Of a stretch of 64,000 nucleotides of DNA, positions 16,090 to 64,000 are shown piece by piece. The translations under genes and the position numbers were made by a program. The notes beneath the pieces are model-generated. The model had not been told where the DNA came from, made no database searches, and saw only the letters and a program-made list of their open reading frames with translations. Location: the NCBI GenBank assembly GCA_921293015.1, contig OV121091.1, forward strand, positions 35,448,839-35,512,838, given 5' to 3'. Each line of letters begins with the position of its first letter. Position 1 is the stretch's first letter. The DNA comes from Phorcus lineatus (Eukaryota > Mollusca > Gastropoda > Trochida > Trochidae).

Positions 16090-16240
16090 TAAGTGCTTGC
16101 GTACAAGTGCTTTCACCGACTTGCACCAGTGTACTCGCGTGATCTCCTCAGACCATATGTTCCAGCGAGATCATTGAGATCAGCTGATCTCATGCTGTTT
16201 GAATTACCGAGAGTGAAGACTGGTTTTGGGAAACGATTAT
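16090..16240 (+). pseudogene. LINE C-terminal fragment
   Basis: The frame LAYKCFHRLAPVYSRDLL, then RPYVPARSLRSADLMLFELPR, matches the common LINE pattern of a YK-LHG-AP-YL-DLL helix followed by P-RSLRS and a PR-R-T motif, found after the RT domain in Jockey/CR1/L2-type elements. Only about 48 residues remain, and a TTA repeat follows at once. This scrap has no catalytic residues. Confidence 0.65.
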
Positions 16241-33649: not shown

Positions 33650-35266
33650 ATACAATGTCATTCTGCATTCATTTTGCCAAAAAAGGTAGTTCTTCAAATG
33701 TGCGCATTGATATATGCAAATGAACAGCGTAATGATATCCACGGAGCTGTTGTGTTGGCATGATCTAAATGTCCCAATTGTTTCTAAATAGAAAAGATGT
33801 AAACGAAAATAAATAAGCGTTTCGATGGTACGTGTAGATTTGAAATCGAATGCTTTCGCCTTTGCGTTCACACGTACTCAGGCGGCCAGCGTATCTTACA
33901 TTGAACGAGAGTTCCTTCCCTTTTCCAAATGCAAATGGCAGCTTGTGTAAACACAACGTTACGGATAGATTAATAATTACTCACTCTACTTATTTTCCGA
34001 AACCCAATAAATGATGAAAACATGTATGATACATCGAAGCTAAATATGAGGTCATTGAACATGTGACTCAATCTGCCTTGGGTTCCCGTGAGTAAAAGAT
34101 AACTCAGTTCGTTCATTAAAATACGCCTATGTATTTCGGTAGATTTCAACCAGGGATGTAATTAAGATATTTTGCACTGCTTGGTCATGAACTTCACGAA
34201 ACAGCTGCACGTTTGTCTTTTCTTCAACTTCATTTTGATGCATTAGATGACGAATTATTAGTTGAAGCCATCCGTTTGTGCAGGCATTCCAAATAATAAA
34301 GCGTGTGACGTCATAGTAATTTTCAGAAAAAGTTCCGGCACTTGACGTCTGTAATTTGCATCGGTATCCGCATATGACCCCAACGGCTTTCGAAAATATC
34401 CGTTGACTTTATTATGCCGAGAACACTATCCGTTGTATGATACATACAACTATTTTAAGCTAGCTGTAACTAGCTGCTTTCCGATGTTCGTTCAACGTAT
34501 GTTAAATTTACTGTTCGCGATTTTCAAAACAAATTAGTCCCGACATAAAATTTAACGGAAAACCAGATTGTGTCAAACCTTTACGAATGTCAGTATGTCA
34601 TAAATTTCTTTTTTATTATTTAGAAAAATTATTCAAGGTATACCCTCAAAAAGAATAATTGCTTGCTCAGAATACAGACATCTAGAAACCAATGGTCTTG
34701 GAGGTAAATAATTTTTAAAGAATGGAAAATTAAGATGTAAAATTCAAGTCAATACATGTTTTTTGTCATTCAAGTACAGTTTGAAAAGTAATATACTAGA
34801 TAAGATTTTGAAGATATATTACGACTGAAAGGTTGTCAATCTTGAAAATAATGGTGTTGGACAACTTTTTGATAAATGGACAAGTCATGTAGTCCTTGAA
34901 AGCAGCTAAGCTAATGGATCTAGAACGTGTAATTTCCATAAGAACTTTTCCATGTTCTAGGTATTCTACAAGCATTTTGTTCCTTTGTTCTATACAAATA
35001 GACAGTCAAACACTATTAGGTCATAATTGTACATTGGAAATATTTTCCAAAGCTGGAGCAAAAAAGGCAAGTGAAACATAAAAGTTTGCTACTTGACAAA
35101 AGTTTATCAGAAGCATAGGTTATTTCGCCATTTATAGTTGTATTTGTCGTTTATGTTAAGGAATAAAGATTTCGAAAAAATAAAGTGGACAAATTTGAGA
35201 TCACGACACGATGATATTACACTATGACTCTGTTTGTATAGTTGTATTAGCTAAATCAAGGACGTG
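33650..35266. other. Unannotated segment left of the 11-kb element
   Basis: No gene is seen. A repeat block at 34855-35052 is listed separately. Confidence 0.4.
34855..35052 (+). repeat. Diverged repeat block, partner of 30540-30745
   Basis: This is the second member of the pair. About 200 bp upstream, CTAGAAACCAATGGTCTTGG resembles CTACAAACTAAAGGTCTTGG at 27.9 kb, so a longer duplicated tract is likely. Confidence 0.65.
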
Positions 35267-35278
35267 TATATGTTCCGT

Positions 35279-35428
35279 GCAATCTGGGAATGATCACAAT
35301 CTGCAGATTGTTCGCTCACAATCTGCAGATTGTTCGGACAATCTAGGAATTTTTTTCATTCCTAGATTGTTTAAACAATCTGCAGATTGTGAGACCTGAA
35401 CAATCTGGGAATGATCACAATCTGGGAA
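35279..35428. promoter_or_regulatory. Palindromic motif cluster, probable transposase-binding end
   Basis: The perfect 16-bp palindrome ACAATCTGCAGATTGT occurs at 35296, 35318 and 35375. ACAATCTAGGAAT and its inverse ATTCCTAGATTGT flank a T-rich loop at 35338-35370. The core ATTCY(Y)AGATTGT is the same motif that recurs once per 63-bp unit inward. That repetition suggests a protein-binding site; binding is inferred. Confidence 0.6.
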
Positions 35429-35536
35429 TATGCTTGTTTGTAGTATAACTTGCATTATCACATGAGAATTGTCTAGTTTATTTAGGTTTTTCTTTGTGTA
35501 TGCATCCAAATGATGGAGAATAGTTGTCAAGTCATA

Positions 35537-36680
35537 GATTGTGACAGGTTCATAGCTCACCTATATATCAAACTGACTGAGTGTAGGGATCGATTCCTAG
35601 ATTGTGAAGGGCTTACAGATCGACATTATATCATACTGAGAGGGATTAAGGGTCAATTCTCGGATTGTGAAGGGCTCACAGCTCGCCTATAGGTCAAGCT
35701 GAGGGACTATAGGGGTCTATTCTCAGATTGTGAAGGTTCATAGCTCACCTTTATTTTAACTGACAGGGTATAGCAGTCTATTCTCAGATTGTGATGGGCT
35801 CATAGCTCGCCTATAAATCAAACTGAGGGAGTGTACGGCTCGATTCCTAGATTGTGAAGGGCTCACACCCCCCTTTATGTCAAACTGACGGAGTATAGGG
35901 GCCGATTCCTAGATTGTGAAGGGCTCACAGTGCGTCTATATGTCAAACTGAGGGATTATGGCGATCTATTCTCAGATTGTGAAGGCTTATAGCTCACCTT
36001 TATTTAAACTGCGAGGGTATAGCAGTCTATTCTCAGATTGTGATGGGGTCACAGCTCGCTTTTATGTCAAACTGAGGGAGTATAGGGGCCGATTCCAAGA
36101 TTGTGAAGGGCTCACAGCGCGTCTATATGTCAAACTAAGGGAGTATAGGGATCTATTCTCAGATAGTGAAGGGCTCACAGCTCGCTTTTATGTCAAACTA
36201 AGGGAGTATAGGGATCTATTCTCAGATAGTGAAGGGCTCACAGCTCGCATTTATGTTAAACTGAGGGAGTTTAGGGATCTATTCTCAGATTGTGAAGGGC
36301 TCACAGCTCGCTTTTATGTCAAACTGAGATGATATAGCAGTCTATTCTCAGATTGTGATGGGCTCATAGCTCGCCTATATATCAAACTGAGGGAGTATAG
36401 GGGCCGATTCCAATATTGTGAAGGACTCACAGCGCGCCTCTAAATCAAACTGACGGAGTATAGGGATCGATTCTCAGATTGTGAAGGGCTCACAGCTCGC
36501 TTTTATGTCAAACTGAGGGAGTATAGGGGTCGATTCCAAGATTGTGAAGGGCTCACAGCGCGCCTATAAATCAAACGTACGGAGTATAGGGATCGATTCC
36601 AAGATTGTGAAGGGCTCATAGCTCGCCTTTATGTCAAACTGAGGGAGTATAGGGGTCGATTCCTAGATTGTGAAAGGCAT
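35537..36680 (+). repeat. 63-bp tandem array, about 18 units
   Basis: The unit reads roughly AGATTGTGAAGGGCTCACAG, CTCGCCTATATGTCAAACTG, AGGGAGTATAGGGGTCGATTC. Because 63 is divisible by three, frames stay open across units and give 21-residue peptide repeats. Variants of adjacent units (TTTATGTC/TATATGTC, GATCTATTCTCAG/GGCCGATTCCAAG) recur in a mixed order. Confidence 0.95.
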
Positions 36681-37029
36681 TGCGCTTGTATTTGTGTTTT
36701 ATTTTGCTATGGAAGGGCTCAGTTCACATATTGTGAATATGTTGAGGTAGAAAACTAGTTTGTATATCGATTCTGCGATATTAGATTTTCATTAATCATA
36801 GTTTGCGGTAACCCGTATAACACTGTTTGATTTAAACATATTTATTCATGAAAATGTACAAATCATGAATGGATTGGCCAACAAGCTCCTAGGTGCTTAT
36901 TTTAAGGCCGCATTTACATATGAGAAAATATATATATACAACTTTATGGTAGTGACACATATCTGATTGCAATCATAGCTTCATAGATAGTGGTTATGCA
37001 TGAATAACATTTCGCTTGTTTGGCAGTCA

Positions 37030-37937
37030 TTATGAAATATCAAATCGATCAGATTTCATTATGTATTGATGAATAGAGTTCAATAATATAATGGAATCAT
37101 TTAATGAGAGCGATGTGCATCCCCGTAGAACCGTTTTAATACCAAATCCTTTCAGATAAAAGAATGATTTCTGTCTTAATTCTATGTACTTATGGCATGT
37201 GAAGAAATAGTGGACAGCGTATTCGACTGGGTGACCACAGGAGCAGGCCGGGCTTTCGATGATATGTCTGTTAAACTTATCAGCGTTCAAGTCACTACAG
37301 TGGAGCCTGGGGCGAGAGTGGATGATCTGGCAAATTCTTGGACCATAGTTAAGATCGAAAGTAGTAGTTTTATTGCCAGGTCCTTGAACTGAATTTCTGA
37401 AACCGGATAATGTAGCAATACTTTGAACGTCAGGAGTAAAGGAATTCCACAGTTTTATTGTTTCAGGTAAAAACGATCTTGCATATAACGCTGTCCTACA
37501 TTTGACAGTTCGGACGGATGAATTTTTTCTGAGGTTGTAGTTATTGTTAGGTGTTGTAGGTAGAAGATTACATAGATATTGAGGCGCAATATTATTCTTC
37601 ATTTTGTAGAACGTTGTCAATTTAGATATATTTCTACGCTCCGATAGGGGTTTTTGATTAGTTTCTTCATAAATACTGTTATGGCTTGTCCCGCGGACTG
37701 CTCCACAAATTGATCTCAATGCGTCTAGATTCAAGTTTTCGAGTAAAATGCACTGTTGTTTGGTGCAATTATCCCAAATGTGGCCGCAATAGTCAAAAGT
37801 TGGCAAGATGAAAGATTTATAAATAATATCCAAACTTTTGCGTGATAAACGATATTTTAGACTTCTTAAGCAGTTTATCAAAGGGCTAATTTTATTGATA
37901 ATCGAGTTTATGTGAATATCCCAGTGACAATTATTTT
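37030..37937 (-). pseudogene. Old CR1-like LINE polyprotein, C-terminal portion
   Basis: The frame holds HWDIHINSI, INCLRSLKYRLSRKSLDIIY, FILPTFDYCGHIWDNC and DALRSICGAVRGTSH, all matched by the young LINE (INCLRSLKYRLNRLSLKTMY, FILPIFDYCDTIWDNC). Near the end is a Cys-His module, CSCGHPVEYAVHYFFTC. The frame is open but the element is split and 5'-truncated, so no enzyme can be made. The frame continues upstream into 42108-41956 once the young LINE is discounted. Confidence 0.85.
37927..37937. repeat. Left target-site duplication of the young LINE
   Basis: ACAATTATTTT here is repeated exactly at 41956-41966 on the other side of the young LINE. Confidence 0.85.
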
Positions 37938-40900
37938 TGTCAATCTCCTTTCACTAAACTCAATGAAAGTCGTCTAAATGAGAATTGTATATCTGAATTA
38001 TGTATATATAACTAATATGAATCATTTACTACACTAGTTATTCATTGGTGTTATTATATCCATGAGGGATTTTGTTTTTGTTCCCTTTTTCTTTTGACAG
38101 ATTATGAAGATAATCTGCCTTTTCCTCTTTTACTTTTCTTTTCTTTATCTATCTATTCCATTCATGTTCGTTTTAAACCTTTTCATGTATGTTTACAAAT
38201 CAACGTGCGTCGCGTCCGCTCCAAACATGTGCCTTCATATGTCTACACTGTCTATTTTGCATTTTGGTACCATTCATTTATTTCATTTCACTCCAAATGT
38301 TTCTAAAATGACTATTCCTCACAAATTAAATACTCTCATTCTGCAGCCACGCCCACTGCATCCTATCTATTAAATGTTTTTGTAAGACAGTCAGATGGGG
38401 GTTGACATAACTCAGTATAGAATTGCAGTTGGGCTGTTTGCTGCATCTACCGCTAGGAGAAACAGTCGCCGCTTCGATAGATTTACTTGCTTTTGTATAG
38501 TACTGTGCCTTTGCTTAGGGGTACGTTACTTCTTAATCATATCTTTGTTACTAATCTGCTGTGGTGATGTTCACCCTCATCCAGGCCCTGATCTTTGCAT
38601 AATTCACTTAATAATTCGTAGTTTAAGGGACAAAACTGATTTACTTGCAGCAGAGTATAGTCACTACGATGTTATCTGTTTATCTGAGACTTGGCTAAGC
38701 CCCGTTGTGTTAAATGATTCTATTCTTTTACCAGGTTTTCATCCACCACTTCGTAAAGATAGACCAACAAGGGGAGGAGGGGTTGCAATTTATCTTAAAA
38801 ATAATTTGTATTTTAATCATTTAACTGATCTTAATGTTCCAGATTTAGAAGCTATTTGGGTTGAAGTTAACACAAACAACAATAAATTTCTCATTGGCAC
38901 CTTCTACAGAGCTGACTTAAGCAATCGATATTGGGATATGATCGATGATTCGATTGCAATGGCTGTTAATAGAAATATAAGATTGTTCATACTGGGCGAC
39001 TTTAATGCCAATATGCTCAGTTCTAGTAACAATAAGATAAAAAATCTCCTAATACTTTATGACCTTGTTCAGATTATAAATGAACCTACAAGAATTACTC
39101 AAAACACTAGCACTTTATTAGATATTATTCTTACATCTTCATTAGATGTTGTACATAATTCGGGTGTTCTTACTCCGATCTGCAGTGATCATTGTCCGGT
39201 TTTCGTTACATTACAACTCGGAAAGCAACCCAAATATGCATTTAAGAGGACCATCTATGACTATAACCGTGCAGACTATGATGGGCTAAATGATAGTATA
39301 CTTACTACTGATTGGGACTATCTGTTTAATGATGATATAAACAGTTCTGCTACCGCGTTTACTAACACTCTTACTGACCTTATCAATGAATATATTCCAA
39401 ACAAAGAAGTTGTTATAAGACCTAGAGACTGTATTTGGATGAACGGATATCTGAGGAAATTAATGAGAAAAAGAAACCGCCTACATAAAATTGCTAAAAG
39501 AAAGAATGATACTCACCATTGGGATCGATTTAAAGTCGCCAGAAATAAAGTCATTTCTGAAGTTAGAATGGCTAAAAGGGATTATGATTCAAAACTTGAT
39601 GACATTATCAACACTGAGAGAGGGACAAAGTCGTGGTGGCGCCTAGTTAATAAGCATATTAAGAAAAATAGAAATTCAGGTAAGCAGTTCCCACCTATCA
39701 CTAATAATGGTTTCGTTTTAGAAAACGCAGAAGATATTGCAAATGTTTTTAATGATTATTTCACAGAACAAGCCCAAGTCGACGAACCTGATATCGATCC
39801 ACCTCCCCCCACTTGCAGTGAAATCAAATTAGATTATTTACATTTAACTGAAAGCGAAGTTTATGATATCTTGCTTTCTTTAAATACTAGAAAAGCCAAG
39901 GGTGCAGATAACATTAGTAACAAACTACTGAAAGTTCTAGCTCGGTCTCTTTATAAACCCATTACAAAGCTTTTTAATTTATCCTTGAAATTGTCCCAAT
40001 ACCCTGTTATTTGGAAATATTCAACAGTCGTGCCTCTTCACAAGAAAGGAAGCATTCATGATTTTAATAATTACAGACCAATAGCGTTAACTTCCTGTTT
40101 GGCCAAAGTATTCGAAAAATGCATATTCAAGCATGTATACAATTTCTTTATAGACAATGAAATAATATCTAAACACCAGTCTGGTTTTAAAACTGGAGAC
40201 TCGACAGTTTATCAATTAACGGAACTTTACCATGTGATATCAAACGCCATGGAGGATGGTAAAGAAGTCAGAGCTATTTTTTGTGATATTAGTAAAGCTT
40301 TCGATCGTGTTTGGCATGCCGGCTTATTAGTAAAACTTGAATCCATTGGAATCACCGGAAGTCTTTTACAGTGGTTTAAGAATTATCTTAGCGATAGAAA
40401 ACAATCGGTTGTGATAAATGGTCATAAATCAAACACAAAATCAATATTTGCTGGTGTTCCCCAAGGCTCTGTCTTGGGGCCACTACTATTTCTTGTTTAT
40501 ATAAATGATTTAACAGACGGTTTGGTAAGGTAAGTAATGTAAAACTCTTTGCAGATGACACTTCTCTATACCTTGTTATAGAAGATCCTTTCCAGACTCA
40601 GACCCTGCTAAACAGTGATTTAAAACAAATTTCAAACTGGGCTAACAGGTGGCAGGTTAAATTCAGTCCTGAAAAGACTGAAGCGATGTTATTTTCAAAA
40701 AAAGGTAATGCAAGTCCGAAACTTCCATTAACGCTAAACAATACTTTAATTCATGAAGTCAGTGAACATAAACATCTCGGTCTAACTCTACAAGAAGATG
40801 GAAAATGGCAGCATCATGTTGAAAATATACTGCGCAAAGCAAGTCCACTTATCAATTGTCTGAGAAGTTTGAAATATAGACTAAATCGATTATCCCTTAA

Positions 40901-41955
40901 AACTATGTATAGATCATTTATTTTGCCCATCTTTGACTATTGTGATACCATCTGGGACAATTGCACTAAAGAGCAAGCTATTATGTTAGAAAAATTGCAT
41001 TTAGACGCTCTGAGGACCATCTCAGGTGCAGTTAAGGGCACAAGTCACCAAAAACTATATACTGAAACAGGCTTGTCTTCGTTAATGGAAAGGCGCCACT
41101 TTCACAAATTATGTATGTTCTATAAAATGGTGTATGGATTAACTCCACAATATCTGTCGATATGGGTTCCACCTAACGTTTCTGATGTAAGCAGTTATAA
41201 TTTACGAAATTCCGTAAATCTACGAGGCACTTCTGGGCGTTTGTCTCATTTTAATAACTCTTTTCTTCCATCAACTGTTAATGCTTGGAACGCGCTGGAT
41301 ACCACCATTAGAAATGCAGCCTCACTGGCACAATTTAAAACTTTGATTTCATGTGACAGGACTTTATCTCCTACATTTAAATATTATACATCTTATGGTC
41401 CAAGGCGAAGTCAAATTCTTCTCTGCCGCATGCGCCTCGGTTGTAGCGATCTCAATTCACATTTGTTTGATAGAGGGTTATCAGTAAATCGCGTCTGTTC
41501 TTGTGGAAACATTAGGGAGGATCCTTTTCATTACTTCTTTAAATGCCCATTATATGATAGATTCCGATCAAATCAATACTTTTTTAAAAACGATATAACA
41601 TTAAAATCTATCTTGAGCGGCGACAAATCCTTGTCACAGAGTGCTAACGAATCCCTAATAATATCTGTATATCATTTCATAAATGATACCAACCGATTTT
41701 CATAACTCTTTTATTAAATCTGTACCAAATGCAAAAGTAGACAATGCTTAATATGATTTTGAGTTTTGTAAAATAATTGAAAATATATATTTCCACCAAT
41801 GTATTTGATATCTTAATCGTTTCTTGCTTGTTTCAGGAGAAGCATTTATATAGGCATTTGCTGCCTGTTTGCTAATCCTTTTTCCTTTTTGTATATATAT
41901 ATATTCTGAATGTTGTGTATTATATGTTTTATGGAAATAAAATACTGTTTAAATC
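37938..41955 (+). mobile_element. Young CR1-like LINE, about 4.0 kb, possibly full length
   Basis: It is bounded by an exact 11-bp duplication. It has a 457-bp leader, one long endonuclease/RT frame (38395-41705, one frameshift) and a 250-bp 3' UTR ending ...ATGGAAATAAAATACTGTTTAAATC. The insertion interrupts the older LINE of the same family in the opposite direction. There is no separate ORF1, so a short 5' truncation cannot be excluded, though the leader and the complete N-terminus argue for near full length. Confidence 0.85.
38395..41705 (+). pseudogene. LINE endonuclease/reverse transcriptase, one frameshift from intact
   Basis: The first frame (712 residues) starts with a hydrophobic stretch and GDVHPHPGP. 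An APE-type endonuclease follows (about residues 70-275) with SETW (E98), FYR, GDFNAN (D202) and SDHCP (D265, H266). The asparagine usual in the first motif (LNIRSL) is I73 here. The RT domain follows with NNYRPIALTS, FCDISKAFDRVW and GVPQGSVLGPLLF. A five-base duplication, GTAAG twice at 40525-40534, throws the frame just before FADDTSLY (40548 on); it then stays open to 41705 through HKHLGLTL, INCLRSLKYRL and a C-terminal VCSCGNIREDPFHYFFKC module. Such enzymes nick target DNA and copy the element's RNA in place. Family call is strong; the clade (CR1/Jockey group) is by motif only. Confidence 0.9.
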
Positions 41956-41966
41956 ACAATTATTTT
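41956..41966. repeat. Right target-site duplication of the young LINE
   Basis: This is an exact copy of 37927-37937. Confidence 0.85.
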
Positions 41967-42108
41967 GAAGAGTCAGACCTAAATGCTTATAGTGTTCTAC
42001 TTCCTGAATGTTTTCTCCGTCCATTGTGAGATTCGGTTGAATGTTTCGGTTTATCTTTCTACTAAACTGAATTGATTTCGTTTTTTTAGGATTAAATGAC
42101 ACTTTCCA
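41956..42108 (-). pseudogene. Old CR1-like LINE polyprotein, upstream piece
   Basis: Read from 42108 down, the frame gives WKVSFNPKKTKSIQFSRK, then MDGENIQEVEHYKHLGLTLQ. The young LINE has WQVKFSPEKTEAMLFSKK and SEHKHLGLTLQ at the same place (about 40650-40790). Joining at the duplicated ACAATTATTTT continues directly into NNCHWDIHINS at 37937, without a frame change. The piece stops abruptly at 42108 next to a run of T. Confidence 0.85.
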
Positions 42109-42130
42109 TTTTTTTTTTTTTTTTTTTTTT
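42109..42130. repeat. Homopolymer T(22)
   Basis: A 22-base run of T, read as A(22) on the strand of the old LINE, lies exactly at that element's 5' truncation point. Confidence 0.95.
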
Positions 42131-43412
42131 GGAGTTACTATTTATGTAGAAGTAAGAATTATTTCTTATATGTGTAAAATGTTTGCATATGGAAATCAAT
42201 AAATAACAATTCACTATGAAAAGTATACTTAATATCTGAAAAGTTAATTACATTGAAATTTAATTCTTCATTTTCGCTTATTTGACTCAAGTTAGGTTAA
42301 TTGAGCATAATTACTATCTGTATCAACACAAAACAATAATCTCTTTTGGTATGAATTACTAACACTTACAAGGTACAATGAAGGAAATAGTCTCGTGATG
42401 CTAAAAGAAAGTTTCAAAAATCAAAGACAACAAACTCTGATCCTTATAATTATTGTTCATTATGGAAACTTGATAAGTGTTACCTTTTTCCCTCATTTTC
42501 TTCCTGGACCGTGACATTGAAAGTTTTTATACGAACGATGCATAAATCGGAAAGTTACTTAATCTTTTGAGTTTGTATATGAAAAGTTTTTAAATATATG
42601 AATTTAATTTTTTTTTATAATACTCGAACAGTTAACATTTTGTGTTGTCGTGAATAATTAGACCAGATGTCTAGCTGGGTCTACTTATCAAAGCAACGTG
42701 TCACTGTGTCGCGTCTCTACTCGGACTTGCGCGTAAATTCGCGTACAATCACATTAACTTCCTCTCTGTAATTTTATGTATATCTATCGCACGATATCAT
42801 TATATACTTATGCAATAATGAATTGACTGGAGTAAAATGTTTTATTGCTCTTCGGTCACACTATATGGTCAACATTTTGACACATTTTTTTTCTGTACCG
42901 TTTTTAATAGTTTCCGTTATAGCGGTTTGTGAAATTAACAAAGAAATATTTGATTTGATTTATTTATTATCTGTTCATGATTCAATATTTTAAGAATATT
43001 TTTATGTGGATGGATTATTTACTACGCTGCAAGAAGAGTCATATAATGGCATCGTCTCTACTCCGTGCTGCGACGTTAGTGACGGGAGTGGCAAACAATT
43101 AATTTAACTGATTTAAACAATATTTAATTTCCATGAAACATATATTACACATCATTCAGAATATATATATTCAAAAAGGAAAAAGGATTAGCAAACAGGC
43201 AGCAAATGCATATATAAACGCTTCTCCTGAAACAAACATGAAACGATTAAGATATCAAGTACATTGGTGGAAATATATATTTGCAATTATTCTTACTAAA
43301 ATCAAATTCATATTAAGCATTGTCAACCTTTGCATTTGGTACAGATTTAATAAAAGAGCTATAAAAATCGGTTGGTATCATTTATGAAATGATATACAGA
43401 TATTAGGTGAAC
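42131..43412. other. Interior of the 11-kb element, unannotated
   Basis: This AT-rich DNA lies between the old LINE and the transposase gene. A short frame at 43133-43387 (84 residues, basic and hydrophobic) resembles no family I know and is not called a gene. Confidence 0.4.
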
Positions 43413-43521
43413 GGACAAAATCCCCAATGGACAAAATCCCCAAGGACAAAAACTCCAAGGACAAAATCCCCAGTGGACATAATCCGCAGCCCTATAACAA
43501 CAAAATGGACAAAATCCCCAA
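43413..43521. repeat. GGACAAAATCCCC short tandem repeats
   Basis: Six units of GGACAAAATCCCCAA(T), some degenerate (GGACAAAAACTCCAA, GGACATAATCCGCAG), lie 320 bp upstream of the transposase start. The last unit is set apart by CCTATAACAACAAAAT. They could be transposase-binding or promoter-proximal repeats, or the eroded end of a separate MULE that brought the gene. Confidence 0.85.
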
Positions 43522-43838
43522 GGTGATTAAAAATGCTTTGTTTTCTTTACTAATCAACTTTGTCTTTAATCAAAGGTATTAGTTACTGAGAAGTTTGAGA
43601 AATTGTTGTTTTGACAAATGGCTGTTTTTAATCACTGGTAGTAAATGTTGTTTTGATAAATGCTTTCTTTGATCACAAGTATTAGTTTATTGAGAATTAT
43701 TGTTTTGATAACATTATAATTTTTTTCTTTGATCAGTAAAAGTAAGCCACTCATCAATCTCATCTTATTTAGAATAACCTCTGATCATGTAGCTTGTGTG
43801 ATGACTTTACTGATATAAATACTATTGGAAATTGACAT

Positions 43839-44975
43839 ATGTACTGTAGTACCACTATGGAGATTCTCAAGAGTAACAAGGGTGGCGTTAAGCTGGCCCT
43901 AGATGGATATATGTACACCAAGAAGAGTGCCTCCAAGTCTACCATGCGTTGGGATTGTTCTGCTAAGAAGTCGTTTAAGTGCTCAGCAATATTGAAGACA
44001 AATCTGTCCTTCGAAGATCCAGAGTTGACAAAGGACCATTGCCATCCTTCAGATCAAACAGCTGTTGATGTTGCCAAATTTAAACGCAAACTTAAATCTC
44101 AAGCTCCTACTGCCTTAGCTAAACCAGCAAAGGTTCTTTCGAATGCTCTTTTGCAAGAATCTGACGAAGTCCGTGCAGAGATGGGATCAATTGCTAGTGC
44201 CAAACGCAATATTCGTCGACACAAGTCAGCTTCATATCCTCCCGATCCATCATCACTTGCTGATTTGACCTTTCCAGAACCTTGGACTACCACTGGCGGA
44301 GAAAGTTCAGAGGAATTCTTATTCTACGATAGCCCGACAGGTTCACCACAGCGAGTTACTGTATTTGGAACTGAAGAGTCCTTGCGTCATCTAGCAGCTT
44401 CGTCTACTTGGTACTTAGATGGTTGCTTTTCCATTTCACCCAAGTTCTACCGACAAGTCTACTGTATCCGTACTGAACTAGATGGCGATAATGCTGTAAC
44501 ATGTGTATATGCTTTCTTGTCCAGTAAGACACAGGCATCATATGAGGAACTGTTTCATGCCATAGACAATAAATGTGAGGAACTAGGTTTCAGTGTTGAT
44601 CCCTCTAAAGTTGTGATGGATTTTGAAGTTGCTGTCATGAACGCTGTGAAAGCTGTCTTTGGTCCTCAAGTGGAAATTCAAGGATGTTTCTTTCATCTCA
44701 CCCAGGCCACTTGGAGGAAGATCGGTGAGCTTGGACTGACAACTGCCTATAAAGGAAATGAACATGTTAAACATTTCTGTGGTATGCTTGACAGCCTTGC
44801 CTTTCTACCCCCTGACGATGTGAGTGAGGGCATTTCTTACCTGAAGGAGAATACCCCTGAGGGTCTTGATGAACTCGTGACATATTTTGATGCAACCTAT
44901 GTGACTGGTTCTTTTAGAAGGATTCAGCGCCCAACCAGAAACAATGAGGATATATCGTTTTTAAAAAAGTATTGA
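43839..44975 (+). CDS. MULE-type transposase with FLYWCH zinc finger, C-terminally truncated
   Basis: This would be the enzyme that cuts and joins ends of a Mutator-like DNA transposon. Of 378 residues, about 15-70 form a FLYWCH finger (GYMYTKKS, W38, C40, C48, H67, H69), a DNA-binding module frequent in animal MULEs. After a basic linker comes the MULE DDE core at about 188-300: LDGCF (D194), VVMDFE (D261) and the family's C-x2-H in QGCFFHLTQ (C283, H286), then YVTGSFRRIQRP (354-365). The region expected to hold the third acidic residue (the NN-E-WN-F type motif) is missing or reduced to NNEDISFLKKY, so the enzyme is probably inactive. The start could be the ATG at 43839 or the one at 43857. 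It lies between the inverted arms and may be their transposase. No intron is evident. Confidence 0.85.
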   Translation: MYCSTTMEILKSNKGGVKLALDGYMYTKKSASKSTMRWDCSAKKSFKCSAILKTNLSFEDPELTKDHCHPSDQTAVDVAKFKRKLKSQAPTALAKPAKVLSNALLQESDEVRAEMGSIASAKRNIRRHKSASYPPDPSSLADLTFPEPWTTTGGESSEEFLFYDSPTGSPQRVTVFGTEESLRHLAASSTWYLDGCFSISPKFYRQVYCIRTELDGDNAVTCVYAFLSSKTQASYEELFHAIDNKCEELGFSVDPSKVVMDFEVAVMNAVKAVFGPQVEIQGCFFHLTQATWRKIGELGLTTAYKGNEHVKHFCGMLDSLAFLPPDDVSEGISYLKENTPEGLDELVTYFDATYVTGSFRRIQRPTRNNEDISFLKKY

Positions 44976-45120
44976 TTTGATCGGAATCCATCATAAAGTG
45001 GCAACAGGCAGGATTTGCTGACAACAATAAGTGGACTTTGCGTAGTATATTTTCAATATGATGCTGTCATTTTCGATTTTCATTTTCCAATTTCATCTGT
45101 ATAAATATGCTTCTATACTT

Positions 45121-46112
45121 AATTTGACGTAAAGACGACCTATGAGCCCTTCACAATCTGAGAATCGACCTCTATACCCCTCAGTTTGATATATAATTGA
45201 GCTATGAGCCCTTCACAATCTAGAAATCGATCCCTATACACCCTCAGTTTGACATTTAGGAGAGTTGTGAGCCCTTCACAAACTGGGAATCGACCCCTAT
45301 ACCCCTTCAGTTTGACTAATAGGCGAGCGGTGAGCCCTTCGCAATCTAGGAATCGGCCCCTGTACTCCCTCAGTTTGACATATAGGCGAGTTGTGAACTC
45401 TTCACAATCTGAGAATAGACCTCTATACTCAGTCAGTTTGATTTATAGGCGAGCTATGAGCCCTTCACAATCTAGGAATCGATCCTTATACTCCCTCATT
45501 TGATATATAGGCGAGTTGTGAGGCCTTCACAATCTAGGAATCGGCCCCTATATTCCCTCAGTTTGACATAAAGACGATCTATGAGCCCTTCACAATCTGA
45601 GAATCGATCCCTATACTCCGTCAGTTTGACATAAAGCCGATATGTGAGCCCTTCACAATCTGGGAATCGACTCCTATACCGCCCAGTTTGACTTATAGGC
45701 GAGCGGTGAGCCCTTTACAATCTAAGAATCGGCCCCTGTACTCCCTCAGTTTGACATATAGGCGAGTTGTGAGCCCTTTACAACCTGAGAATTGACCCCT
45801 ATATTCTGTCAGTTTAAATAAAGGTGAGCTATGAGCCCTTAACAATCTAGGAATCGGCCCCTATACTGCGTCAGTTTGGTTTATAGGTGAGCTGTGAGCC
45901 TTTCACAATCTAAGAATCGACTGCTATACCCTCTCAGTTTAAATAAAGGTGAGCTATGAGCCCTTCACAATCTAGGAATCAACTAAGTTTGACATAAAGA
46001 CGAGCTGAGAGTCCATTACAATCTGGGAATCGGCCCCCATACACCCTCATTTTGAGAAAGAGACAAGCTGATTGCTCATCACAACCTAGGAATCGATCCC
46101 TATACTTGCTTA
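45121..46112 (-). repeat. 63-bp tandem array, about 15-16 units, inverted
   Basis: The unit is the reverse complement of the left array (GAGCCCTTCACAATCTGAGA, ATCGACCTCTATACCCCTCA, GTTTGATATATA...). One unit near 45985 is shortened. Frames across the array stay open only because the period is 63. Confidence 0.95.
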
Positions 46113-46180
46113 ATAGAGAAACCTTAATAAGCTAGATAATTCCTACTTTATAATGATGAAAATACTACTAAAACACAAAT

Positions 46181-46290
46181 TCCTAGATTGTGATCATTCC
46201 CAGATTGTTCAGGTCGCACAATCTGCAGATTGTTTAAACAATCTAGGAATTCGAACAATCTGCAGATTGTGATATACCCCAGATTGTTCG
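46181..46290. promoter_or_regulatory. Palindromic motif cluster at right end
   Basis: ACAATCTGCAGATTGT is seen at 46218-46233 and 46255-46270, with ATTCCTAGATTGTG and CAATCTAGGAATTCG around them, mirroring 35279-35428. One palindrome fewer than the left end. Confidence 0.6.
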
Positions 46291-46456
46291 TAACATATAG
46301 ACCTATTCAAATCCTTGGCTAAATATTATTTTGCTTTGTGTTAAACTTAAACTGTTAAATTACTTGACACAAATCCCTGTTGCTAATATACACAAATATT
46401 AAGATTATTTTCAATGTGGAAGTAGACAACTTCAATAGTTGCATCCGAAAAAAATA

Positions 46457-47975
46457 AACTCTTCAAAAAAAGAAACTTGACATTCATGCGAAATTGATTT
46501 TTTTCGAAGCGGATCTATTTTTTTCATGATACATACCTGTAATTTAAAGATAGGCTTGCTCAAAAGTGTAAATTTACCAAAAACAATGGCCCAAAAAGTT
46601 AACGTTGTGTTCAGGGACGAAAACGAGCGATTCGTCCAAATGCATTTTCTGCCAAAGCACATGCAGCATGGGATCATGAAGGTTTACATGCAGACACGTC
46701 TGCTTTAGGGGTATACAAAGCCATATCAGCCGCTGTTCATTCAGACTACACAACATCTGTACAGCGACCTGAAGAATGCCAAGACTGAACAGAGCGCAAC
46801 GCAACAACGCTATTGGCAGACTGCAAGCAGGAGCGACGCAGCGAGATTTTGCAACACACTTTGGCGTGTCCAGACAGACCATCTCTTCATTGTGGACCCG
46901 TTTCAACACCCGAAACAGCGTTGATGATAGGCCAAGGTCAGGCAGACCAAGGGTGACTACTCGGGCCCAAGATCGGTACATCCGACTGCTCCACCTTCGG
47001 GAACGCACCAGGACAGCAACGTCAACAACAACGCAGATACCAGGCCTGAGTCGAATTTCCGACCAAACGGTACGCAACAGGCTGAGAGAGGCTGGACTTC
47101 TTCCACGACGACCGGTTCGACGTCCCGTTTTAACGCAACGTCATCTGGTGGAACGTCTCCAGTGGTGTTAACAGAGGATGAGATGGGCACGTGCAAGGTG
47201 CAGAACCGTTCTCTTCACTGATGAGTCCCGTTTTCTGCTTCGACGAAGTGATGGACGAGCACGTGTATACCGACGTCGTGGAGAACGTTATGCTGCCAAC
47301 TGTGTTCAGGAGGTTGTCTCATTTGGAGGTGGGAGTGTCATGGTGTGGGCCGGGATTCGTCACGGTGTTAGGACACCCCTTGTGCATGTTGTGGGTAACC
47401 TCACAGGAGTACGGTATAGGGACTTGATCCTACAGCCTTACGTTATTCCTCACGTCAACGTCCATGGTGGTCTCTTTCAGCAGGACAATGCTCGACCACA
47501 TGTTGCACGTGTTTGTCAAGACTTTTTACAGCGTAACAATGTCCAGACATTGCCATGGCAAGCCAGGTCACCAGATTTGTCACCAACTGAGCATCTCTGG
47601 GACGAACTGGATCGACGCGTGCGCAGTAGGAATCCACCATCCAAACACTTTCAGGATTTCTTGCAGCACTTCAGCACGAATGGCAGAACATTCCACAGGC
47701 TGTGATTGACAACTTGATTGCATCCATGGGTCGTCGGTGCCAAGCAATAATCAATGCCAATGGTGGCCATACCCGATACTGACATGTGTGCACCCCTGTG
47801 ATGTTGAAACACTTGTGCACCTGTGCATTTCAAGATCATGCTTATTCTGAATAAAAATTACCGAACAGAGATCTTCAAACAGCGTTTTAGTTTTCATTTT
47901 AATGTTTAACTTGCATCTGTGGTCTTCATATTGAACTTTGAAAGTCAGTGTCAAGTTTCTTTTTTTTGCTAAAGT
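46457..47975 (+). mobile_element. Tc1/mariner transposon, nearly complete
   Basis: A left terminal repeat (ACTCTTCAAAAAAAGAAAC, TTGACATTC) and an inverted right one (GTGTCAAGTTTCTTTTTTTT, GC) enclose a transposase. TA dinucleotides abut both ends (46455-46456 and 47976-47977), the Tc1 target duplication. Length is about 1.52 kb, usual for the family. It sits about 160 bp outside the right arm of the 11-kb element. Confidence 0.85.
46776..47782 (+). pseudogene. Tc1 transposase (DD34E), one stop and one frameshift
   Basis: The N-terminal half has the paired-type helix-turn-helix region (QRDFATHFGVSRQTISSLW), a GRP linker (RPRSGRPRVTT) and a second DNA-binding stretch (ISDQTVRNRLREAGL). A TAA at 47169-47171 interrupts ERLQWC/QRMRW; a CAA there would be read through. 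The catalytic core then has LFTDESRF (first D), QQDNARPH (second D) and SPDLSPTEHLW (E), with 34 residues between the last two, hence DD34E. Near 47660 the frame shifts by one, and the usual tail (NIPQAVIDNL, SMGRRCQAII, NGGHTRY) continues in another frame to the stop at 47780-47782. The catalytic residues remain but the protein cannot be made whole. Confidence 0.9.
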
Positions 47976-62968: not shown

Positions 62969-64000
62969 CAGTAGAACTCGGATATAACGAACTCCAAGGG
63001 ACCAGCGAATCTAGTTCGCTATATCCGGTGTTCGCTACTCACGTTTGGCAGCCATCTTGGATTATCAAAATGAAAACGTACATGTCTAAACACAAAAATA
63101 ACAAAGATAAATTATACTGCACTTCATATCTTTATTCTGGAGGATCAAGGAGCACGATAAAGTTTTTACAATTACATATCCATAGCACTAGTACGTTTGA
63201 CAAAGTCTGCAATCTTCGTTTGCATACCTCGTTTGGCCTTCTTCATTTTGTCGACAGCTTGACATACATCTGCGAGGGAATCAAACACAGCAGTGTCCGA
63301 CCCCATCGTCTCGCACACGAGCAGATCACGAAGTGTTTGTATTGCCGCATTGGCTTCAGCAAACGTTGGTTTCGGTCTTGGTTCGTCTTCGTCACTGTCC
63401 GAGTCGGGAGTTGATGAGACAGTGGGCGTGGCATGCTTCTTGGTAACTGACTCCAAGATTTCATCTTCAGTCGGGCGTTCCGCTACCAGGACATCATTGT
63501 CGGCATTGATGAAATCTTCCATTGTTACTCCATCTGGCTTATCTGTGATTTCCTTCCACATCACTCGTAGGTCAGAGAGCAGCATGTCATCGGCCTCATC
63601 GTCTGAATCTTCGGTTGACTCAGGCATGACGAAGCCCCCCTTCCTGTAACAATTGGTAATTGTCTTACACGTGACCTGTCTCCATGCAGCGTGGATCATC
63701 TGGACGGCGTCTAGAAGAGTGATCTTGTATTCCACTTTCTGGTCATATGCAGCAAGCATTTTTCTCATCACCTGGCCCTTGTAGAACTGCTTTAGGTTTG
63801 CAATTATGCCTTGGTCCATCGGTTGGATCTTCGACGTGGTGTTTGGTGGAAGAAAGACAACTTTCACATGTGTGAGGTTTTTCACGACAGGGTGGGCAGG
63901 GCAATTGTCAACAAACAACAAGATTTTGCGTTTTTGTGACAAGAAACGCAAGTGAACTGACATTCTGTGACCATGTCGGGTATTTAAACACAACATCTGT
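62969..64000 (-). mobile_element. pogo/Tigger DNA transposon, 3' end (continues past window)
   Basis: A TA (62967-62968) is followed by CAGTAGAACTCGGATATAAC and GAACTCC-AAGGGACC, a typical Tigger terminal repeat. A subterminal inverse (AGTTCGCTATATCCGG) can pair with it. The transposase reads toward this end on the minus strand. The other end is outside the window. Confidence 0.85.
63172..63996 (-). CDS. pogo/Tigger transposase, C-terminal part (partial at window edge)
   Basis: This is the DDE_1-type enzyme that excises and inserts Tigger elements at TA. The visible 274 residues hold the second and third catalytic aspartates: LLFVDNCPAHP (D30 of this partial) and FLPPNTTSKIQPMDQG (D61), with 30 residues between them. 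GQVMRKMLA and the A-W-V-T-TI-NC-RK-GF block of Tigger proteins follow. The C-terminus is acidic (EDSDDEADD, DSDSDEDE), also usual here. The first aspartate and the CENP-B-like DNA-binding half lie beyond 64000. The frame is open to its stop, so this copy may be fairly young, though residues 1-20 match the family poorly and may hide a frameshift. Confidence 0.9.
   Translation of the reverse strand: MLCLNTRHGHRMSVHLRFLSQKRKILLFVDNCPAHPVVKNLTHVKVVFLPPNTTSKIQPMDQGIIANLKQFYKGQVMRKMLAAYDQKVEYKITLLDAVQMIHAAWRQVTCKTITNCYRKGGFVMPESTEDSDDEADDMLLSDLRVMWKEITDKPDGVTMEDFINADNDVLVAERPTEDEILESVTKKHATPTVSSTPDSDSDEDEPRPKPTFAEANAAIQTLRDLLVCETMGSDTAVFDSLADVCQAVDKMKKAKRGMQTKIADFVKRTSAMDM

Follow-up and report, generated by a model that had tools for sequence, protein, structure and literature searches.

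Two inverted arms of tandem repeats with a FLYWCH-MULE transposase gene between them raise the question of whether the arms are the ends of one transposon and whether the enclosed gene is its motor. We addressed this question in a 64,000-nucleotide stretch of the gastropod Phorcus lineatus (contig OV121091.1 of assembly GCA_921293015.1, positions 35,448,839 to 35,512,838 of the forward strand; hereafter the window, in whose own coordinates all positions are given). We consider it likely, with good confidence, that the arms form the ends of an old DNA transposon of foldback type at 35257-46317, one that was probably non-autonomous, and that the FLYWCH-MULE gene was nested in it later.

The inverted arms (n = 2) mirrored each other, with the order of tip, spacer, and array being the same in both. 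Tandem Repeats Finder (TRF) detected 18.2 copies of the 63-bp repeat on the left and 15.9 on the right, in line with the 15-18 copies counted in the initial annotation. The inverted match between the arms reached outward to 35264 and 46302 in local alignment, and the element ends were set at 35257 (CAAGGA) and 46317 (TCCTTG) by short mirrored termini and an outer direct repeat, close to the pair of arms first placed at 35267-46299. The parts of the arms are as follows.

35250-35256, plus strand: putative target duplication GCTAAAT, left copy.
35257-35428, plus strand: left outer tip, bounded by CAAGGA; it contains three exact 16-bp palindromes as well as one of 18 bp (AGATTGTTTAAACAATCT), and further half-sites in both orientations.
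35429-35506, plus strand: left spacer, common to the right arm.
35530-36740, plus strand: left array, 63-bp units with ATTC-NN-AGATTGT (TRF core 35536-36678).
45100-46106, minus strand: right array, the mirror image of the left one and again made of 63-bp units (TRF core 45123-46106).
46107-46179, minus strand: right spacer.
46180-46317, minus strand: right outer tip, bounded by TCCTTG; it contains two exact 16-bp palindromes and another palindrome, together with half-sites.
46318-46324, plus strand: putative target duplication GCTAAAT, right copy.

The GCTAAAT sequences at 35250 and 46318 form an exact 7-base direct repeat that abuts the CAAGGA and TCCTTG termini; P and hAT elements often start with CA. 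When equally long window stretches outside the arm element were taken as random pairs, 5 of 20,000 showed a direct repeat of 7 bases with an inverted match of 6 bases next to it. Because mirrored ends beside a direct repeat are rare in random pairs, the arms look like one inserted element, as the initial annotation had proposed, and this result raised our confidence in one paired element slightly and lowered that in its rivals. A longer duplication can also be read, TTAGCTAAAT versus TTGGCTAAAT, with 9 of 10 bases identical; the termini mirror each other only under the 7-base reading. The 8-10 bp duplication expected at the outset has room only in this longer match with one mismatch, the exact match being 7 bases. 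A search restricted to mirror-match ends with nearly equal shifts gave only short duplications as its best rows (5/5 and 6/7). The locus shows structural traits of the foldback class: long inverted ends with tandem repeats, copy numbers unequal between the ends, and a putative outer-end target duplication, GCTAAAT, which is seen in a single copy of the element and under post hoc thresholds.

The tips were then compared with the rest of the window. The 16-bp palindrome ACAATCTGCAGATTGT occurred five times exactly, always in the tips (35296, 35318, 35375, 46218, and 46255), and seven of the eight perfect 16-bp palindromes in the window were located in the arm tips, so that the reported clusters of palindromes at the tips were borne out. 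The sole perfect 16-bp palindrome outside them lies at 16176-16191. The left tip partly folds as one long hairpin (z of -11.3 against 200 shuffles), and the fold of the right tip is weaker (z of -6.7). Arm-to-arm identity was 69/72 in the inner tip, 43/51 in the outer 51 bases, and 51/73 aligned bases in the adjoining spacer, which is thus shared as first described, although diverged. Inner tip and spacer differed significantly (Fisher p of 4e-5). Neutral decay since insertion should strike tip and spacer alike, so this difference suggests constraint or conversion; the tip sites may have been held by constraint during the history of the family, or by conversion.

The arrays were cut into 38 units (21 left and 17 right, edges included), with spacings of 46-63 bases and no inner unit skipped. 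ATTC-NN-AGATTGT recurred about once per 63-bp unit, as had been noted for its core, and was exact in 25 of the 38 units as counted on the unit alignment. ATTC-NN-AGATTGTGA was the best-conserved part of the unit. After three degenerate edge units were set aside, mean mismatch in the remaining 35 units was 3.1% in the 13 motif columns versus 18.5% elsewhere; the values were 5.9% versus 21.7% with all 38 units, 3.3% versus 16.8% with 33, and 2.8% versus 15.4% with 30. The motif mask ranked first among the 63 rotations in every one of the four unit sets, and ATTC was the single best four-column block with 35 and 33 units. The two free bases within the motif were among the most variable columns (0.49 and 0.51). 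Counted exactly on either strand, AGATTGT was present 45 times in the 2,680 bp of the arms versus 15 times in the remainder of the 64 kb. In the tip palindromes, it stands head to head and without the ATTC part. This pattern is consistent with the ladder of protein-binding sites suggested in the initial annotation. Unit identity was about 80% both within and between arms, and there was no clear sign that units had been homogenized within each arm (the difference of within minus between was 0.006, with a permutation p of 0.10, for 30 of the 38 units).

Between the arms, copies of long interspersed nuclear elements (LINEs) and the transposase gene were arranged in the following order.

36830-37926, minus strand: 3' part of LINE copy A, with an open reading frame at 37030-37950; 37697-37825 is a 70% DNA match to the plus-strand LINE reversed.
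37927-41967, plus strand: LINE that landed in copy A; it has endonuclease and reverse-transcriptase domains, and its target ACAATTATTTT(T)G is duplicated (37927-37939 and 41956-41967).
41968-42141, minus strand: remaining 5' part of LINE copy A (open reading frame 41929-42141, minus strand).
42142-43108, no strand assigned: interior of about 1 kb without a recognized gene.
43109-43405, minus strand: 3' end piece of LINE copy B, 93% identical to 41956-41659 reversed.
43406-44950, plus strand: separate insert in LINE copy B; it has tandem GGACAAAATCCCCA-type repeats on its left side (43413-43520), contains a FLYWCH and MULE transposase frame, and lacks its right end.
43836-44975, plus strand: open frame encoding a FLYWCH zinc finger and a MULE domain, whose last codons are antisense LINE sequence.
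44951-45081, minus strand: further pieces of LINE copy B in order, with internal loss between them; 44951-45001 is 94% identical to 41597-41547, and 45027-45081 is 85% identical to 40852-40794.

The older minus-strand copy A is split by the plus-strand LINE, which spans about 37940-41957 and is flanked by ACAATTATTTTTG and ACAATTATTTTG. The low end of the 3' part of copy A (about 36830) was set by eye from a LINE-like 3' end, and its high end by the target duplication of the inserted LINE. Copy B is a second, minus-strand copy of the younger LINE. One frame shift near 40510-40533 was also observed in the plus-strand LINE (38386-41705), within the reverse-transcriptase domain, and a long T run at 42109-42130 lies at the 5' edge of copy A, where the minus-strand frame reads it as a run of lysines. 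Beyond the right arm, by about 450 bp, pieces of a Tc1/IS630-type transposase were found in two frames at 46773-47705 on the plus strand (HTH_Tnp_Tc3_2 and DDE_3), and a transposase frame of the DDE_1 superfamily on the minus strand (63172-63999) runs off the window end.

We next consider whether the gene could be the arms' own, as the initial annotation had assumed. A FLYWCH-MULE gene is indeed present between the arms; both domains lie in one protein and scored above the gathering score (PF04500, E value 1.9e-11; PF10551, E value 7.3e-11), with FLYWCH at 11-70 and MULE at 192-290 of a 379-residue stop-to-stop frame. Against solved structures the transposase gave two weak matches, the better being the FLYWCH protein 2rpr (E value 0.055). 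A single autonomous FLYWCH-MULE foldback of Phantom/Tm1 type, in which the LINEs inserted and whose own transposase is the 43836-44975 gene, would account for this open frame with both domains and for its position between tandem-repeat arms, which is the layout of Tm1; the 9/10 direct match also leaves room for a duplication of MULE length. However, the gene segment 43406-44950 matches no LINE sequence of the window and is flanked by pieces of LINE copy B in the same order and on the same strand. Because it is bounded by ordered pieces of one LINE copy, the gene arrived after copy B. The segment also has tandem repeats of its own at the LINE junction: the GGACAAAATCCCCA-type repeats of about 15 bp begin 7 bases beyond the left junction, and all six of their matches in the window at up to 2 mismatches fall within 43413-43520 (at up to 3 mismatches, 9 matches in total versus a shuffle mean of 4.6). 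Furthermore, the exact duplication is 7 bases, the sole length that fits the mirrored termini, whereas MULE target duplications are 8-11 bp; the table of a survey (PMC6446971) counts FLYWCH and minisatellites among the features of Phantom. The frame is also still open although the arm spacers differ by 30%; simulated copies kept an open frame in 36%, 8%, 0.7%, and 0.1% of 1000 at 2, 5, 10, and 20% divergence, and this age argument is weak, since the arm diversity may predate the insertion. We therefore regard it as unlikely that the gene is the arm element's motor.

Most likely, judging from the order of the segments, the FLYWCH-MULE insert is a separate truncated element nested in the LINE between the arms. 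Of its own ends, the left repeats are seen, while the right end is missing together with 61 LINE bases at the right junction; this loss would be accounted for by a deletion that ran over the right end of the insert. The end of the frame, including the stop, is antisense LINE sequence. As described in PMC3169594, Tm1, a Phantom-type MULE foldback of root-knot nematodes, has a 496-residue FLYWCH-MULE transposase (FLYWCH at 5-66, MULE at 197-294), composite tandem-repeat inverted ends, and target duplications of 8-10 bp, mostly 9. With domains at similar positions in 496 versus 379 residues, the protein here probably lacks a C-terminal part relative to Tm1. The insert is closer to Tm1 than the arms are, as its repeats are about 15 bp (13-15 bp in Tm1) and its domain positions are similar; it differs in being cut, and the arms differ in having 63-bp units and no assignable gene. 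The insert is probably an independent Phantom/Tm1-like element that has been truncated. The FLYWCH-MULE transposase that marks Phantom/Tm1 sits in this insert within a LINE copy, and the arms have a 7-base exact duplication, or 9/10 with one mismatch, against the MULE length of 8-11 bp.

With the nested insertions removed, the arm element would be about 3.8 kb, with no recognized transposase. This remainder consists of the two arms, 90-150 bp by the left arm, the approximately 1 kb at 42142-43108, which may be the original middle of the arm element, and a short piece left beside the right arm. In general form it resembles Drosophila FB elements, which have long tandem-repeat inverted ends; the likeness is one of description. 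Closer comparisons are given by Tetris and Galileo. Tetris is a foldback of Drosophila virilis with inverted ends composed of an outer flanking domain, tandem repeats, and an inner domain; like the arms here, it has long inverted tandem-repeat ends, no protein gene, no known transposase, and a stretch common to the flanking domain and the repeats (PMC4079207, available portion). In contrast, the same portion gives units of about 220 bp versus 63 bp here and target duplications of 8-10 bp versus 7 exact (9/10 with one mismatch) here, and does not mention tip palindrome clusters such as those in our arms. Galileo, of the P superfamily, likewise has long terminal inverted repeats with tandem repeats (PMC3688188 and PMC3573991) and, as here, 7-bp target duplications (PMC3573991). 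Besides a site close to the end, its THAP domain recognizes two further sites, which lie in the first two of the four tandem repeats, and the authors propose that specificity comes from the large number of sites; section 13 of that paper describes Foldback and Phantom repeats as similar in structure and, in 2013, called their binding role untested (PMC3688188). Galileo has a known THAP-type transposase, whereas the arms have no assigned one, so that the two are likened by description and not by sequence. In length, a duplication of 7 bp agrees better with Galileo than with a MULE, although the 9/10 match is also present. Of the eight frames compared with Pfam, four lay in the interior, smaller interior frames being left out, and none of these four matched a THAP-type transposase; such a transposase would be missing from a non-autonomous copy. 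The suggestion that such a combination may be undescribed was not supported at the level of kind, because Tm1 already pairs a FLYWCH-MULE transposase with composite tandem-repeat ends, and both the plan of the arms and the notion of repeated binding sites are on record for Tetris and Galileo (PMC3169594 and the papers above).

Two other explanations of the arms were weighed. They may be two separate array-bearing elements, such as Helentron-type HINEs as in oysters, that came to lie opposite each other by chance or inversion; in bivalve HINEs, flanking modules enclose short arrays that resemble satellites, and a palindrome lies close to one of the ends (PMC7492417). However, that definition differs from what was found, since the same multi-palindrome tip is on the outside of both arms and the arrays end inward at different unit positions with no common inner terminus seen. 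The mirrored termini beside the direct repeat also lie at the pair's outer ends, and we consider two elements very unlikely. A degraded inverted satellite array that is not a transposon is hardly credible, for although the arrays alone are satellite-like in their unit identity within and between arms, the tips are more conserved than the spacer, spaced motifs are common to tips and units, and the termini adjoin a direct repeat.

Several observations weigh against the conclusion that the arms are the ends of one non-autonomous foldback. No transposase is assignable to the arms, and an 8-base gap separates the alignment of the two ends just inside CAAGGA. A 7-base direct repeat alone was frequent (1,986 of 5,000 random pairs), so the weight rests on its position beside the mirrored termini, and the thresholds of that test were chosen after the match was seen, in one copy. 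The motif mask was likewise fixed after the column profile was seen, the core having been named beforehand in the initial annotation; the anchor used for cutting units overlaps columns 7-22, with ATTC outside it, and with all 38 units five rotations, the true one included, were equally good for ATTC alone. No other arm-like match, and hence no second copy, was seen in the window at an E value of 1e-3, and the viral and prokaryote collections gave only isolated short-motif matches or nothing, with no relative. In viral contigs, the 16-bp palindrome was found in nine stretches with one site each, AGATTGTTTAAACAATCT in four, and AGATTGTGAAGGGCTCA in one; blastn of the arms and the gene against these 14 loci gave only matches of up to about 28 bases among the matches listed. 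ACAATCTGGGAATGATCACAATCT was absent from viral contigs, ATTCNNAGATTGTGAAGGGCTCA from prokaryote genome contigs, and the tandem GGACAAAATCCCC pattern from both. The transposase protein pattern hit two stretches in viral contigs, none of which was confirmed, and Rfam gave no matches. The element was not found among the literature matches listed, in a search outside subscription papers, Repbase, and Dfam. The motif letters were not found in the literature, the GGACAAAATCCCC letters recovered only papers unrelated by title, and no paper joining foldback, mollusc, and 63-bp (at least 4 of 5 terms) was found.

Thus, the element is of a known kind, and the arms look like a new member of it. In this reading, its middle was later filled by two minus-strand LINE copies, one of them split by the further plus-strand LINE, and the separate truncated FLYWCH-MULE element landed in the second. 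A transposase supplied in trans may bind the spaced half-site ATTC-NN-AGATTGT, which the 63-bp units carry as a single site; in the tip palindromes, it would meet head-to-head pairs of AGATTGT. The many sites per arm would raise both the specificity and the avidity of end recognition, and the cut in such cut-and-paste movement would fall at the CAAGGA termini. Only tentatively, and with the chances against it, we suggest that the arms belong to a foldback family not yet described, marked by CAAGGA termini and a target duplication of 7 bp, perhaps a Galileo-like member of the P superfamily outside flies, whose transposase reads ATTC-NN-AGATTGT singly in about 35 units and AGATTGT paired in the tips.

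The locus serves as a warning that a transposase gene between two arms may not belong to the arms. Over about 35 diverged units, a spaced motif is nearly constant apart from the two free bases in its gap, and both tips contain its half-site again; once a transposase is found, this would make the element a good test case for tandem repeats as transposase-binding sites. If the proposed reading of the sites is true, a two-tier recognition code would be visible in one copy.

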